Shown here: in pieces, positions 32,837 to 37,497 of the stretch
How the letters are laid out: the number at the start of each line of letters is the position of its first letter
Numbering within the stretch: position 1 is the first letter of the stretch
DNA from: Eubacterium sp. 14-2
GTDB taxonomy: Bacteria; Bacillota; Clostridia; Lachnospirales; Lachnospiraceae
Assembly: GCF_000403845.2 (NCBI RefSeq)
Contig: NZ_KE159567.1
Coordinates: forward strand, 51,081 to 115,080
DNA: 64,000 nucleotides
Direction of reading: 5' to 3'
Program-made: the position numbers and the translations under genes
Notes under the pieces: model-generated
Databases searched by the model: none
Seen by the model: the letters and a program-made list of their open reading frames with translations, nothing else
Told to the model about the DNA's origin: nothing

Positions 32837-33168
32837 ATTAGTTCTCTACACTTTCTGTTTGTGAATTGTTACTGTTCCTTTCTTAATTAAAAGTAAACAG
32901 CAACCATGAATCTGTCATAACTGCTGTGCAGTACAGGCCCTGAGGGCGGTATAATATCAGCATTATACCACAGAAAATATAAAAATTCCATACCTGTTAA
33001 GTTTCTGAATTATATAATATTTTATAATGAAAAGGAGTCCATTATATGTTATGATAAAAACAGAAAAAAATATGTTGCCGGGATGCAAGGATTTTTCGGA
33101 ATATATCGTATTATAAGTAGAAAACAAAATAATAGCAATATATTCAGAGAAAATCAGGAGGTTATATT
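32837..33168. other. AT-rich divergent promoter region
   Basis: About 330 bases between the leftward kinase and the rightward secreted-protein gene. No gene. AT-rich promoter-like stretches (TATAATATTTTATAATG near 33015-33031) are present. AGGAGG lies at 33156-33161 ahead of the next ATG. Confidence 0.5.
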
Positions 33169-33855
33169 ATGAAAAACGGTAAGAAAATGTTAGTTGCAGG
33201 GTTAGCCTGTCTTGTAGTATTGGGGATTGCTGTTCCCACAGCAGCTTTCCGTCTGCAGAATCAGGAAACGCCGCTGAAAAAAGAACAGGTGGAACAGAAG
33301 ACTGAGGTGAGACAGTCCGGAGCGGAGGATATGCTGAAACAGGCTGTACAGACGGTAAGTACAAAGGGTGCAGAGGTTACTGACCCGGAAGATGTGATAC
33401 TGCCGGTAGTGACACCCACAGAGGAGCCGGAAGACAACAGCGAAGTACCGCCTGCTGAGAATAACAGCGACGAAGCACAGGATACGGAAGCACCGGCGGA
33501 GGATAATACAGACACAGAGGCACCGGTGGAAGATAATACAGACACAGAAGCACCGGCAGACGTAACAGAGAATACAGATCCTGGCACAACAGCGGCAGTC
33601 TGTCCTTACTATGCAGATGCGAACGGTGACGGATACTGTGACCATTGTGCTCATAACGGAGCCTGCGGCAACAACTTTACGGATGTCAACGGAGATGGAA
33701 TCTGTGATTACTGTACCCATAACGGCAGCGGACATTGCGGCAATTATTCAGATACCAACGGCGACGGATACTGTGACAACTGGAACGGTTACGGTAATGG
33801 AAACGGTGGCGGCGGACACCATGGCGGCGGACACCATGGAGGACGTCACTGGTAG
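33169..33855 (+). CDS. secreted protein with DxNGDGxCD repeats and His/Gly-rich tail
   Basis: A 228-residue protein. Residues 1-24 are a signal peptide (MLVAGLACLVVLGIAVPTAA). Residues ~30-145 are acidic and Thr/Glu/Pro-rich, with short repeats of APxEDNTDTE. Residues ~146-205 carry three calcium-loop-like motifs (DANGDGYCD, DVNGDGICD, DTNGDGYCD), each with Cys and His (CDHCAHNGACG). The tail is GGGGHHGGGHHGG-rich. The motifs suggest Ca2+ binding, and the Cys/His content suggests transition-metal binding. It lies 21 bases before a sigma factor gene. Enzymatic function is not evident. Confidence 0.75.
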   Translation: MKNGKKMLVAGLACLVVLGIAVPTAAFRLQNQETPLKKEQVEQKTEVRQSGAEDMLKQAVQTVSTKGAEVTDPEDVILPVVTPTEEPEDNSEVPPAENNSDEAQDTEAPAEDNTDTEAPVEDNTDTEAPADVTENTDPGTTAAVCPYYADANGDGYCDHCAHNGACGNNFTDVNGDGICDYCTHNGSGHCGNYSDTNGDGYCDNWNGYGNGNGGGGHHGGGHHGGRHW

Positions 33856-33876
33856 GAAGAACAAAGGGGATATTTT

Positions 33877-34359
33877 ATGCGTGGTGAACAGGAGGTTGAA
33901 CAGGCAATAAAGACGTATGCCGATATGATACGGAGGATTTGCCTTTTACATCTGAATAACCATGAAGATACGGAGGATGTGCTTCAGGAGGTGTTTTTGA
34001 AGTATGTCCTCCATTCTGCGGTCTTTGAAAATTCTGAGCATGAAAAAGCGTGGCTTATCCGGGTCACACTCAATGCCTGCAAAGACCTGAAGAGAAAGCT
34101 GTTTCGACACGGGACAGTGCCGCTGGAAGTGCTTTCAGAAGAAGCTGCCAGTGTGGAGCCGGAGCAGATGGAAATACTGGAGACAGTGCTTGGTCTGCCG
34201 GCAAAGTATAAAGACGTAATATATCTCCATTATTATGAAGGGTATACTGCCAGGGAAATAGGAACTATGCTGCATAAGAAAGAAAATACCATATATTCTC
34301 TTTTATCGCGGGGACGGGATATACTGAAACAGAAGTTAGGAGGTGGCGGCAGTGCATGA
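33877..34359 (+). CDS. ECF-type RNA polymerase sigma factor
   Basis: A 160-residue sigma-70 family protein with regions 2 and 4 only. Region 2 (residues ~8-75): IRRICLLHLNNHEDTEDVLQ is the -10-reading helix pair, DVLQEVFLKY the typical core-binding motif. Region 4 (~100-155): LPAKYKDVIYLHYYEGYTAREI and KENTIYSLLSRGRDILK form the -35-binding HTH. It overlaps the anti-sigma gene by 8 bases and follows the secreted metal-motif protein, so the three form one regulatory unit, probably self-controlled. Confidence 0.9.
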   Translation: MRGEQEVEQAIKTYADMIRRICLLHLNNHEDTEDVLQEVFLKYVLHSAVFENSEHEKAWLIRVTLNACKDLKRKLFRHGTVPLEVLSEEAASVEPEQMEILETVLGLPAKYKDVIYLHYYEGYTAREIGTMLHKKENTIYSLLSRGRDILKQKLGGGGSA

Positions 34360-35143
34360 TGAGATTCGGAAAGCATTTGGACAGATTCGTGCAACTGAGC
34401 AGATGAAACAGTCCGTGTCGGAACATCTGACTCAGAACAGAAGGAAAACTGCAAAAAGCTCCATACGGGTCAGTCTGGCCCCTCTGGTGTCAGCCTGCGC
34501 CCTTTTACTGCTCTGTGTCGGAATCGGAAACTGGTATTTTTTCCAGGAAATGCCAGTATCCTATGTCAGTGTGGATGTTAATCCTTCTGTGGAACTGACG
34601 CTGAACCGCAGGAATCGTGTGACCGCTGCGGAGAGCCGGAATAAAGAAGGAGAGATTGTTCTGGCACATCTGGAGCTGGAGGGAAAAGACTATCTGGAGG
34701 CGGTGGAACTGCTGGTGGGAAGTCAGGCCATGCAGAAATATCTCACAGGAGATGCGGAACTGACGGTTACCGTGGCTTCATCAAATGCGGAGGAACTGCT
34801 CTCCGGACTGGAAAACAGCGAGATAACCACCCACTATCATGGTATGTGCCGAAGCGCTGATATGGATACGGTGAGGTCTGCTCATGAAATTGATATGTCT
34901 CTGGGGAAATATCAGATGTATCAGCTTCTTTCCCAGTATAATGCTGAACTGACAGCAGAGGAATGCCAGTCAATTCCCATGTGCCAGCTGGGACGTCTTC
35001 TTGCCCAGTATGAAAACGGCAGGCAGGAAGCGGTGGGAGAAGAGGAACTGAGAGAAATGGAAACGGGCTGCGGTCATGATGGCGGCAGCCATCATAGCCA
35101 AAAAGGCCATCACAATGGAAAAGGCCATCATAATGTAAACTGA
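34352..35143 (+). CDS. membrane anti-sigma factor with RsgI-like domain and His-rich tail
   Basis: A 263-residue protein. Residues 1-45 are cytoplasmic and would bind the sigma factor. One membrane helix follows (LAPLVSACALLLLCVGIG). Outside, YVSVDVNPSVELTLNRRNRV is the conserved segment of RsgI-type anti-sigma factors. The last ~25 residues are His-rich (HHSQKGHHNGKGHHN), a likely metal ligand cluster, matching the His-rich tail of the secreted partner. The GTG at 34352 is used for its spacing to AGGAGG. Metal sensing is inference. Confidence 0.82.
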   Translation: MHDEIRKAFGQIRATEQMKQSVSEHLTQNRRKTAKSSIRVSLAPLVSACALLLLCVGIGNWYFFQEMPVSYVSVDVNPSVELTLNRRNRVTAAESRNKEGEIVLAHLELEGKDYLEAVELLVGSQAMQKYLTGDAELTVTVASSNAEELLSGLENSEITTHYHGMCRSADMDTVRSAHEIDMSLGKYQMYQLLSQYNAELTAEECQSIPMCQLGRLLAQYENGRQEAVGEEELREMETGCGHDGGSHHSQKGHHNGKGHHNVN

Positions 35144-35213: not shown

Positions 35214-35223
35214 GGAGGGCATT

Positions 35224-35796
35224 ATGGGAAAAAAATTAACAGTGAAAGAAATTGTCTGCGGGGGTTTGTTCACAGCATTGGTAGCGGCAGGAGCCTTTAT
35301 TCAGGTTCCCATACCAGGAATGGACTATTTTACCCTGCAGTTTTTATTTGTGCTGCTGGCAGGAATGATACTTGGATATAAAATGGGGGCAGTCAGTATA
35401 GGAGCGTATGTGCTGCTGGGGCTGTGCGGCTTGCCGATTTTTGCCGCAGGCGGCGGAATCGCCTATATTTTCCGCCCCAGTTTCGGCTATCTGGTGGGTT
35501 TTATCCTGGCAGCTTTTGTGGTGGGACTGGTTGTGGAGAAGTCCGGGATTCGGGGATACGCAAAATATTTAACCGCAGCCTTTGGGGGATTTACAGTTAC
35601 CTATGCAATCGGGCTGGTATACAAATATATGATGCTGAATTATTATGTGGGGGAAAAAACAGCCTTTGCCATGGTACTGGCAGATTGTTTTCCGCTGGAT
35701 ATGCCAGGTGACCTGGTTCTGTGTTTTCTGGCTGCCGGGCTGGCAGTTCGGCTGGTACCGGCTTCCCGGAGTATTCTGGGAACCCTGGCGGAATAA
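35224..35796 (+). CDS. bioY: biotin transporter substrate-binding (S) component BioY
   Basis: A 190-residue membrane protein with about six helices. The family hallmarks GAFIQVPIPGMDYFTLQFLF near the N-terminus and GLCGLPIFAAGGGIAYIFRPSFGYLVG are intact. BioY binds biotin at the outer face and works with the shared ECF energy module. The start at 35224 follows GGAGGG; the frame extends upstream over the promoter. First gene of bioY-bioB-bioD. Confidence 0.95.
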   Translation: MGKKLTVKEIVCGGLFTALVAAGAFIQVPIPGMDYFTLQFLFVLLAGMILGYKMGAVSIGAYVLLGLCGLPIFAAGGGIAYIFRPSFGYLVGFILAAFVVGLVVEKSGIRGYAKYLTAAFGGFTVTYAIGLVYKYMMLNYYVGEKTAFAMVLADCFPLDMPGDLVLCFLAAGLAVRLVPASRSILGTLAE

Positions 35797-35845
35797 AAGT
35801 GTAACTCTGAATCAAGACTTTATGACAGTAAGGTGGAGGGAAACC

Positions 35846-36814
35846 ATGAAAAACAGGCTTGAAATGCTGAAGGAAAAGGTTCTGAACGGATATCAGATTT
35901 ATAAAAAAGAAGCCCTTTTTCTGGCAGAGCAGCCTCTGGAAGAATTATGTAAGGCAGCCGATGAAATTCGCCGGGCCTTTTGTGGAAATGCTTTCGATTT
36001 ATGTACAATTATCAACGGGAAAAGTGGAAAATGTTCTGAAAACTGCAAATATTGTGCACAGTCCTCTTTTTATCAGACCCATGTGGAGAGTTATCCTCTG
36101 CTTGGTACAGAGGAACTGGTACAACAGGCGGAGTACAACAGCCAGCGCGGTGTGCCCAGATATTCCATTGTCACATCCGGAAAAAAACTGAACAGTGAAG
36201 AAGTGGAACAGGTCTGTGAAAGTATCCGGCAGATAAAAAAATCAGTAAATATTTCGGTATGCGTGTCTTTCGGTCTGCTGGAAGAGGAAGATTTCCGCAA
36301 AATAAAAGAAGCCGGAGCAGAACGGGTACATAACAATCTGGAAACTTCAGAGGTTTATTTTCCAAAGGTATGTACCACCCATACCTGGCAGGATAAAATC
36401 AGAGCCCTGAAAAATGCCAGAGCCGCCGGAATGAGCGTGTGCAGCGGCGGCATAATGGGTCTGGGAGAAACGATGGAGGACCGCATTGACCTTGCGCTGA
36501 CTCTGCAGAACCTGGGGGTGAATTCTGTTCCGATTAATATGCTGAATCCCATACCAGGTACTCCATATGAAAAAAATCCGAAGCTGACAGAGGAAGATAT
36601 GCGCCGGATTATCGCAGTGTTCCGGTTTATTCTGCCGAAATCTTTCATCCGCCTGGCAGGAGGCAGAGGACTGATGGAAGATCAGGGACGGAACTGTTTC
36701 CGTTCCGGTGCAAATGCGGCCATTACCGGAGATATGCTGACTACAGCGGGAATTACCATCAGACGGGATATGGAAATGCTGAAGGAACTGGGATATCAGG
36801 TGGTGAAAGTATGA
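35846..36814 (+). CDS. bioB: biotin synthase
   Basis: A 322-residue radical SAM enzyme. The [4Fe-4S] site is CSENCKYCAQSS. Downstream markers include CVSFGLLEEEDF, RVHNNLETSEVYFPKVCTTH and FIRLAGGRGLMEDQG, where an Arg ligates the auxiliary cluster. It inserts sulfur into dethiobiotin. GGTGGAGGG precedes the ATG. It overlaps bioD by four bases. Confidence 0.95.
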   Translation: MKNRLEMLKEKVLNGYQIYKKEALFLAEQPLEELCKAADEIRRAFCGNAFDLCTIINGKSGKCSENCKYCAQSSFYQTHVESYPLLGTEELVQQAEYNSQRGVPRYSIVTSGKKLNSEEVEQVCESIRQIKKSVNISVCVSFGLLEEEDFRKIKEAGAERVHNNLETSEVYFPKVCTTHTWQDKIRALKNARAAGMSVCSGGIMGLGETMEDRIDLALTLQNLGVNSVPINMLNPIPGTPYEKNPKLTEEDMRRIIAVFRFILPKSFIRLAGGRGLMEDQGRNCFRSGANAAITGDMLTTAGITIRRDMEMLKELGYQVVKV

Positions 36815-37497
36815 GCAGAGGAATTTTTGTTACCGGCACAGGAACCGATGTGGGAAAAACGTATGTAACAGCTCTTCTGGTGCGGACTTTGCGTAAAGCA
36901 GGTGTAAAAGCGGCATATTATAAGGCGGCGGTCAGCGGAAATGAACGGGACGTCCATGGGAGGCTTATACCGGGAGATGCAGATTGGGTCAGGGCTGTTT
37001 CCGGGATTGCCCAGCCGCTGGAATCCATGGTGCCCTATATTTATGAACAGGCAGTTTCCCCTCATCTGGCAGCCAGAAAGGAGGGGAATCCGGTTGAACT
37101 GTCCGTAGTGTGTCAGGGGTATGAGAAACTTTGTCAGGAATACGAATATATCACCATGGAAGGCAGCGGAGGGATTTTATGCCCTATGCGGCAGGAGGAA
37201 GGGAAGGAACTGTGGCTGGAAGATATTATCAGAGAGCTGCAGCTTCCCTGCCTGGTAGTTGCAGAGGCGGGCCTGGGCACCATTAACCATACCATTCTGA
37301 CCCTGGAATATCTTAAGATGAGAGGAATTGAGGCCAGGGGCGTGATTTTGAATCATTTTCATCCGGAACTGGAAATGGAGCAGGAGAACCGCAGCATGAT
37401 AGAACAGCGCGGAAAAGTCCCGGTTCTTGCATGTATACCGAACTATGGAGAAGAAGTGGATATACCAGCGGAAAAACTGATGGAGCTGTATCAGTGA
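36811..37497 (+). CDS. bioD: dethiobiotin synthetase
   Basis: A 228-residue P-loop enzyme. GTGTDVGKTYVTALL is Walker A and the substrate-binding site; MEGSGGILCPM carries the second conserved loop. It closes the ureido ring of 7,8-diaminopelargonate with CO2 and ATP. No bioA, bioF, bioW, bioC or bioH is present here, so the pathway's early steps must lie elsewhere or be missing. Confidence 0.94.
   Translation: MSRGIFVTGTGTDVGKTYVTALLVRTLRKAGVKAAYYKAAVSGNERDVHGRLIPGDADWVRAVSGIAQPLESMVPYIYEQAVSPHLAARKEGNPVELSVVCQGYEKLCQEYEYITMEGSGGILCPMRQEEGKELWLEDIIRELQLPCLVVAEAGLGTINHTILTLEYLKMRGIEARGVILNHFHPELEMEQENRSMIEQRGKVPVLACIPNYGEEVDIPAEKLMELYQ

Follow-up and report, generated by a model that had tools for sequence, protein, structure and literature searches.

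The window, which is the whole 64,000-nucleotide stretch of Eubacterium sp. 14-2 DNA analysed here, encodes an ECF sigma factor and an adjoining membrane anti-sigma factor, and one type of predicted promoter lies before their operon and before one more gene for a secreted His/Cys-repeat protein. The anti-sigma factor appears to be a receptor that senses something outside the cell, probably a metal ion. The regulon seems to be little more than secreted metal sponges, with metal binding and induction both predicted. We consider it an even call whether the whole constitutes a self-contained envelope switch that responds to metal and whose signal is shut off by secreted chelators.

All three ORFs are present on the forward strand at 33169-35143, and the sigma factor, RsgI-like anti-sigma factor, three motifs and His tails that the sequence-only reading had described there were all found. 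A putative autoregulatory ECF-type operon promoter, TGCAAG-N17-CGTATTATAAGT, is located at 33084-33118 (+), and was identified from its retention in relatives and a genome-wide pattern scan. The ribosome-binding site of the secreted gene, AGGAGG, follows at 33156-33161 (+). The secreted Cys/His-rich protein (33169-33855, +; 228 aa), the proposed extracellular metal-binding output, was defined by its ORF, a Pfam scan and orthologues. The ECF sigma factor (160 aa) occupies 33877-34359 (+) and the membrane anti-sigma factor (263 aa) 34352-35143 (+). Although the anti-sigma ORF is open from both GTG 34343 and GTG 34352, the latter is the better candidate start because of the AGGAGG spacing and because it was picked by a ribosome-binding-site rule; with this start the gene overlaps the sigma gene by 8 bases. 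The same arrangement is seen again in many genomes and so is not due to chance. Directly downstream, in window positions 35218-37497, a Pfam scan identified bioY, followed by ORFs that we take from their sequences to be biotin-synthase-like and dethiobiotin-synthetase-like; these genes were excluded from the module.

The secreted protein has a hydrophobic N-terminal signal peptide and a linker that is acidic and contains a 30-base repeat. Three DxNGDGxCD repeats are encoded at 33616-33642, 33682-33708 and 33751-33777 (+), the first two followed by CxxCxH elements, and the protein ends in a His-rich tail, GHHGGGHHGGRHW (33814-33852, +). When the residues after position 30 were shuffled, not one DxNGDGxCD motif arose in 20000 trials. 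Pfam and NCBIfam scans of the protein returned no family above cut-off, and Pfam gave no excalibur, dockerin or carbohydrate-binding match at E<=1. Pfam scans of two further partner types from relatives also yielded no family above cut-off. A calcium domain in the secreted protein was rejected, as Pfam provided no family match. Using a crude AxA rule, His was placed within the first three mature residues in 35 of the 99 partners from relatives (signal-peptide partners picked blind to His and Cys), and at the first residue in 20. Such a His position near the mature N-terminus is used by Cu and Ni sites.

The sigma factor carries Sigma70_r2 and r4_2 domains above the Pfam cut-off, scores 72.6 with TIGR02937 (sigma70-ECF; cut-off 42.9), and its best solved chain by E-value is SigW 5wuq. 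The gene is accompanied, as expected of an ECF factor, by an adjoining anti-sigma gene and by its own ECF-type promoter, whose function is predicted.

The anti-sigma factor matches RsgI_M (PF23750) in Pfam with an E of 7.7e-24. In an AlphaFold2 model (mean pLDDT 86.7, pTM 0.72) the helices at the N-terminus are short, a single long helix and an RsgI periplasmic domain are formed, and the His-rich C-terminus is unstructured and of low confidence. The long helix (residues 43-66; 34478-34549, +) is, judging by its hydrophobicity, the probable transmembrane helix. The RsgI_M or RsgI periplasmic (self-cleaving) domain spans 34556-34924 (+). The ten best Foldseek matches of the model are all RsgI periplasmic domains, and a profile search returned the same RsgI entries. 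By alignment, the predicted Asn-Pro self-cleavage site is VNPS (34577-34588, +; N77/P78 of the 263-aa protein). Five solved RsgI chains match from their own first residue at profile position 81, which is Pro in the two alignments shown. A chain starting at Pro is what Asn-Pro self-cleavage would leave. The Asn-Pro site is present in 85/86 loci and invariant in a 67-row alignment; H178 and C205, after the site, are each at least 90% conserved. The His-rich extracellular tail is encoded at 35066-35131 (+). RsgI_N (PF12791) had no match in the protein at E<=1 and none genome-wide at E<=0.001, where the B. subtilis control was positive. The earlier description of the protein as an RsgI-like anti-sigma factor thus holds for the extracellular domain and only there.

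The His tail, with at least three His within the last 60 residues, is found in 85/86 loci. It is not universal: some loci of the family sample have a poor tail or none, with 23/32 carrying at least three His in that stretch and five carrying no His there. Tail His and secreted-protein His are correlated in the raw data (Spearman 0.62), and the correlation is gone in phylogenetic contrasts (r 0.08, p 0.44). Matched His content was for this reason dropped as proof of a common ligand.

By homology, signalling may proceed as follows. The RsgI_M extracellular domain would cut itself at Asn-Pro and the pieces would stay associated. The ligand would act on the C-terminal piece, whose end here is the His-rich tail. 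A site-2 protease would then cut the membrane stub, freeing the sigma factor; the genome holds a single RsgI_M match and one M50 protease match, a candidate for this step. C. thermocellum RsgI is reported to undergo autocleavage, RseP and ClpXP steps (PMC12203970), and we infer the same proteolytic route for the anti-sigma factor. Composition suggests that the ligand may be a transition metal present in excess outside the cell, Zn, Cu or Ni being likelier than Ca. It likewise suggests that the secreted His/Cys-rich proteins could be extracellular chelators that bind the ligand and so shut the signal off.

The sequence-only reading had proposed looking for a shared promoter, and one was found: besides its site upstream of 33169 the genome has one more, before a secreted His/Cys-rich gene. 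With up to three mismatches the pattern has two matches in the 3.99-Mb genome, both perfect, and the same scan with the pattern reversed has none. The second match is 1.36 Mb from the operon (G000:C1:1441177, minus strand); 24-30 bases downstream of it begins a gene encoding a secreted MAHGHHGGGHH...(NYCSYHKTVHKNLKSC)n protein. This second target, outside the window (L032 958-1476, minus strand), has tandem NYCSYHKTVHKNLKSC-type units, is unrelated to the secreted protein of the trio, and had no family above cut-off in a Pfam scan. As another secreted His/Cys-rich protein by its sequence, it fits a metal theme. No efflux gene was found in the predicted regulon, both genomic matches at up to three mismatches preceding secreted-protein genes, a scan that may miss weaker sites.

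The promoter upstream of the secreted gene is kept in relatives. At up to two mismatches, 18/29 genomes of the genus have a match (24 sites; reversed control 0). These are 18 of the 22 genomes with the module vs none of the 7 without it (Fisher 0.0002), a comparison that treats related genomes as if they were independent. Among the 7 module-less genomes, two are only 63% and 74% complete, and G019 is placed among the carriers on the basis of a secreted gene plus a sigma gene that the contig end truncates. Of 41 further genomes, 16 have matches to a stricter pattern (17 sites), and 19 genomes of clades with a TGAAAG -35 box gave 19 sites in 17 genomes; both controls were 0. A secreted Cys- or His-rich gene follows 58/60 promoter sites (56/58 when two sites seen twice are counted once), mostly the module's own operons, which were the source of the patterns, so that the count is not independent; at four of the sites (L050, L191, L194, L204) an out-of-frame ORF was printed and the gene was taken by coordinates from other listings. 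The first gene after the matches was never a metal transporter. Across 1065 kb of module loci, TG[CA]AAG-N17-CGT[AG]T has 91 matches on the two strands vs 1 for the reversed pattern. Of these, 83 sit at the partner gene, partly by construction since partners with a promoter were preferred. These strict counts replace an earlier 66/69, which used relaxed patterns, some of them weak. At four loci (L017, L018, L118, L121) the promoter can be read as coding, and mechanical ORF calls then extend the secreted genes falsely at the N-terminus (MQGF..., MKGF...) through ATGCAAGGATTT or ATGAAAGGATTT.

Matches away from the module loci provide an independent test. Eight of ten distinct matches of this kind precede a secreted Cys- or His-rich gene (L032, L046, L054, L050, L051, L146, L151 and L192), while those at L052 and L187 precede other ORFs. 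Seven of the eight positives are of one HKTH-repeat kind and six of these seven genes adjoin one common gene, presumably dehydrogenase-like; sharing one neighbour, they represent few independent events. The match at L192 (1555-1893), in the TGAAAG clade, precedes a gene for a Cys-rich, His-free DADGDGICDN protein. Its neighbour is an ORF that we take to be glutamate-synthase-like, and no sigma gene was seen within the 3-kb stretch.

The anti-sigma gene is present in 21/29 genomes of the genus. At 20 of the 21 best loci a secreted Cys/His-rich gene adjoins the sigma/anti-sigma pair, the remaining locus (L015) being cut off. Four kinds of secreted protein occur at these loci: DxNGDGxCD repeats (L001-L010), a short VDENHxxxC type (L011-L013, L016), CxHTDGNHPxDCPNW repeats (L014, L017), and a small HKTH-type protein whose gene lies beside the operon and not inside it (L018-L021). 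The DxNGDGxCD motif is missing from many partners of relatives. A scan of named genomes confirmed at least 547 relatives, of which 80 were kept. Among the matches listed, titles that name a group point to Clostridia, many of them Lachnospiraceae, and carriers include [Clostridium] symbiosum, with strain ATCC 14940 (L064, L145), Anaerotruncus colihominis, Petralouisia muris and Faecalimonas umbilicata. In a family sample of almost one genome per genus the receptor was matched in 46/299 genomes at E <= 1e-25; weaker matches include longer, probably paralogous proteins. The family loci examined are the best 32 of 50 matches outside the genus.

All sets together gave 133 loci, reduced to 120 distinct ones, and conservation of the trio, which the sequence-only reading had asked about, is borne out there: the sigma gene adjoins in 114/120, and a signal-peptide partner picked blind to His and Cys was obtained in 99. 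By source, partners were obtained at 20/21 genus, 59/71 named-genome and 20/28 family-sample loci, and the strict promoter is found at 20, 53 and 10 of them, respectively. At least 4% His or at least 4% Cys is found in 94/99 partners. The baseline for this rule is 14/74 signal-bearing ORFs with a ribosome-binding site lying more than 1.6 kb away, and the rule is lenient, as 249/495 mechanical signal-bearing ORFs, many surely spurious, pass when the ribosome-binding-site filter is omitted. A stricter cut (His >=4% and Cys >=3%) is passed by 75/99 partners. With a strict His filter in 86 distinct loci, 60/134 signal-bearing ORFs within 1.5 kb pass vs 0/96 further out. The distinct repeat types of the partners have the promoter and His/Cys richness in common. 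Relatives retain the predicted promoter, the sigma and anti-sigma genes as a pair, and a secreted product rich in His/Cys, but they do not retain the sequence of that product.

The blind rule found no partner in 21/120 loci. Six of these do show a secreted Cys/His gene in other listings of the loci (L076, L092, L108, L179, L182, L183), L176 has a Cys-rich secreted gene, and L015 is the locus that is cut off. On a second look, 13 sigma-bearing loci lacked a secreted partner; two of them (L066, L097) are truncated where the contig starts. Four others (L081, L126, L172, L180) have a strict promoter directly before the sigma gene itself, which speaks for autoregulation if the promoter functions as predicted. 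There being no secreted gene nearby, the target in these four genomes, if any, lies elsewhere.

The module shares features with two known systems. Like SigI-RsgI of Bacillus subtilis and Clostridium thermocellum it has an RsgI_M domain, with fold matches 8t9n, 8her, 8hdj, 8hep, 8heq and 8u9o, and solved RsgI chains begin at the residue that aligns with its Asn-Pro site. In contrast to SigI-RsgI, the partner is a short ECF factor and not SigI, RsgI_N is absent from the protein and the genome, a His-rich tail is present and no carbohydrate-binding domain was found, and the targets are genes for secreted Cys/His-rich proteins. CnrYXH of Cupriavidus metallidurans is reported to be released by Ni or Co (PMC4803752). 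It combines an ECF sigma factor, a membrane anti-sigma factor and a third component under autoregulation, as the module appears to do. The receptor domain differs, judging by a Pfam scan that gave only RsgI_M for the anti-sigma factor here and nothing above cut-off for the secreted protein; CnrX is a sensor whereas the secreted protein here looks like an output; and Cnr controls an efflux pump, of which there is none among the promoter matches. The module is RsgI-like outside the membrane and CnrYXH-like in logic, and belongs to neither, since it lacks RsgI_N and SigI and its promoter matches are followed by no efflux gene.

The ECF partner had been thought unusual for an RsgI protein. The partner here is indeed an ECF factor and not SigI, but an ECF gene also lies directly before the RsgI_M membrane protein in 9/9 other same-genus pairs (L022-L030), which rules out the pairing itself as new. 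All nine sigma genes are above the TIGR02937 cut-off in a profile scan and differ from that of the trio. These pairs constitute a second ECF/RsgI_M family in congeners, each with its own ECF gene, the complete anti-sigma proteins being about 440-530 aa. Compared with the trio's receptor their N-terminus is different, and their tails are long and acidic/Pro-rich, the final 60 residues containing 0-1 His (four complete ones compared). Among the literature matches listed, no title or abstract start concerned an ECF/RsgI_M/His-rich module. One source on chromium-impacted soil mentions RsgI transcripts, and its available text contains nothing on such a module (PMC12234377).

The role of the secreted protein bears on two alternatives. 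The sequence-only reading had allowed for metal acting through this protein, and by analogy with CnrX it might itself sense the metal and contact the anti-sigma factor. The secreted gene is usually first in the operon, as that of a cognate sensor might be. However, a partner that fits the conserved RsgI_M domain should itself be conserved, and the secreted protein is swapped for other repeat types between relatives; its gene sometimes adjoins the pair under a promoter of its own, another secreted type occurs unlinked in the same genome, and some loci have the sigma and anti-sigma genes with no partner nearby. We regard such a sensor as improbable. The secreted protein is more likely an output, because its sequence is replaced between relatives and because in some of them its gene adjoins the sigma operon and is not within it. 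Retention of composition without sequence is what selection for binding capacity would produce in an output, and is less expected in a sensor that has to fit a receptor. Sensing of calcium or carbohydrate, with Ca bound by the DxNGDGxCD loops and the module acting as a regulator of wall or cellulosome type in the manner of RsgI, is suggested by the RsgI domain together with the calcium-loop-like motifs, which we take to resemble dockerin- or excalibur-like motifs. It is very improbable, as Pfam gave no carbohydrate-binding, dockerin or excalibur match, the motif is absent from many partners, and the partner sigma is an ECF factor and not SigI.

An excess metal as the ligand has to be weighed against two other signals. 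Cys/His-rich proteins may answer oxidative, electrophile, haem, acid or antimicrobial envelope stress. Several family-sample partners are Cys-rich with little His, several of the corresponding anti-sigma tails have few His, and His-rich tails could presumably titrate near pH 6. Recurrent His-plus-Cys repeats such as YCSYHKTVHKNLKSC and CxxCxH nevertheless resemble metal ligands, and an acid or redox sensor would have no need of such repeats in its output, so we consider a non-metal signal unlikely while giving it some weight. Somewhat more doubtful is a metal starvation response, with secreted proteins scavenging scarce metal as a zincophore does and the anti-sigma factor firing when its His tail is empty. 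Its anatomy would be identical, and secreted His-rich proteins could capture metal as well as detoxify it, but the first gene after the promoter sites found was never an uptake transporter or receptor.

We therefore return to the metal-responsive switch with secreted chelators. In its broadest form, to which we give a little less than even chances, it would be a widespread, undescribed system of gut Clostridia for buffering extracellular metal, in which an RsgI-type self-cleaving receptor with a His-rich metal-binding tail frees an ECF factor dedicated to it. The entire regulon of this factor would comprise one or two secreted metal sponges, which would evolve through complete turnover of their sequence while promoter and metal-ligand composition are kept. 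If this is true, many gut Clostridia carry a dedicated sensor and a secreted chelator for extracellular metals, and RsgI-type self-cleaving receptors would gain a non-carbohydrate ligand. It would also provide a function for a set of Cys/His-rich secreted proteins, three types of which were scanned and fall in no Pfam family above cut-off, and the regulon would be small and directly testable.
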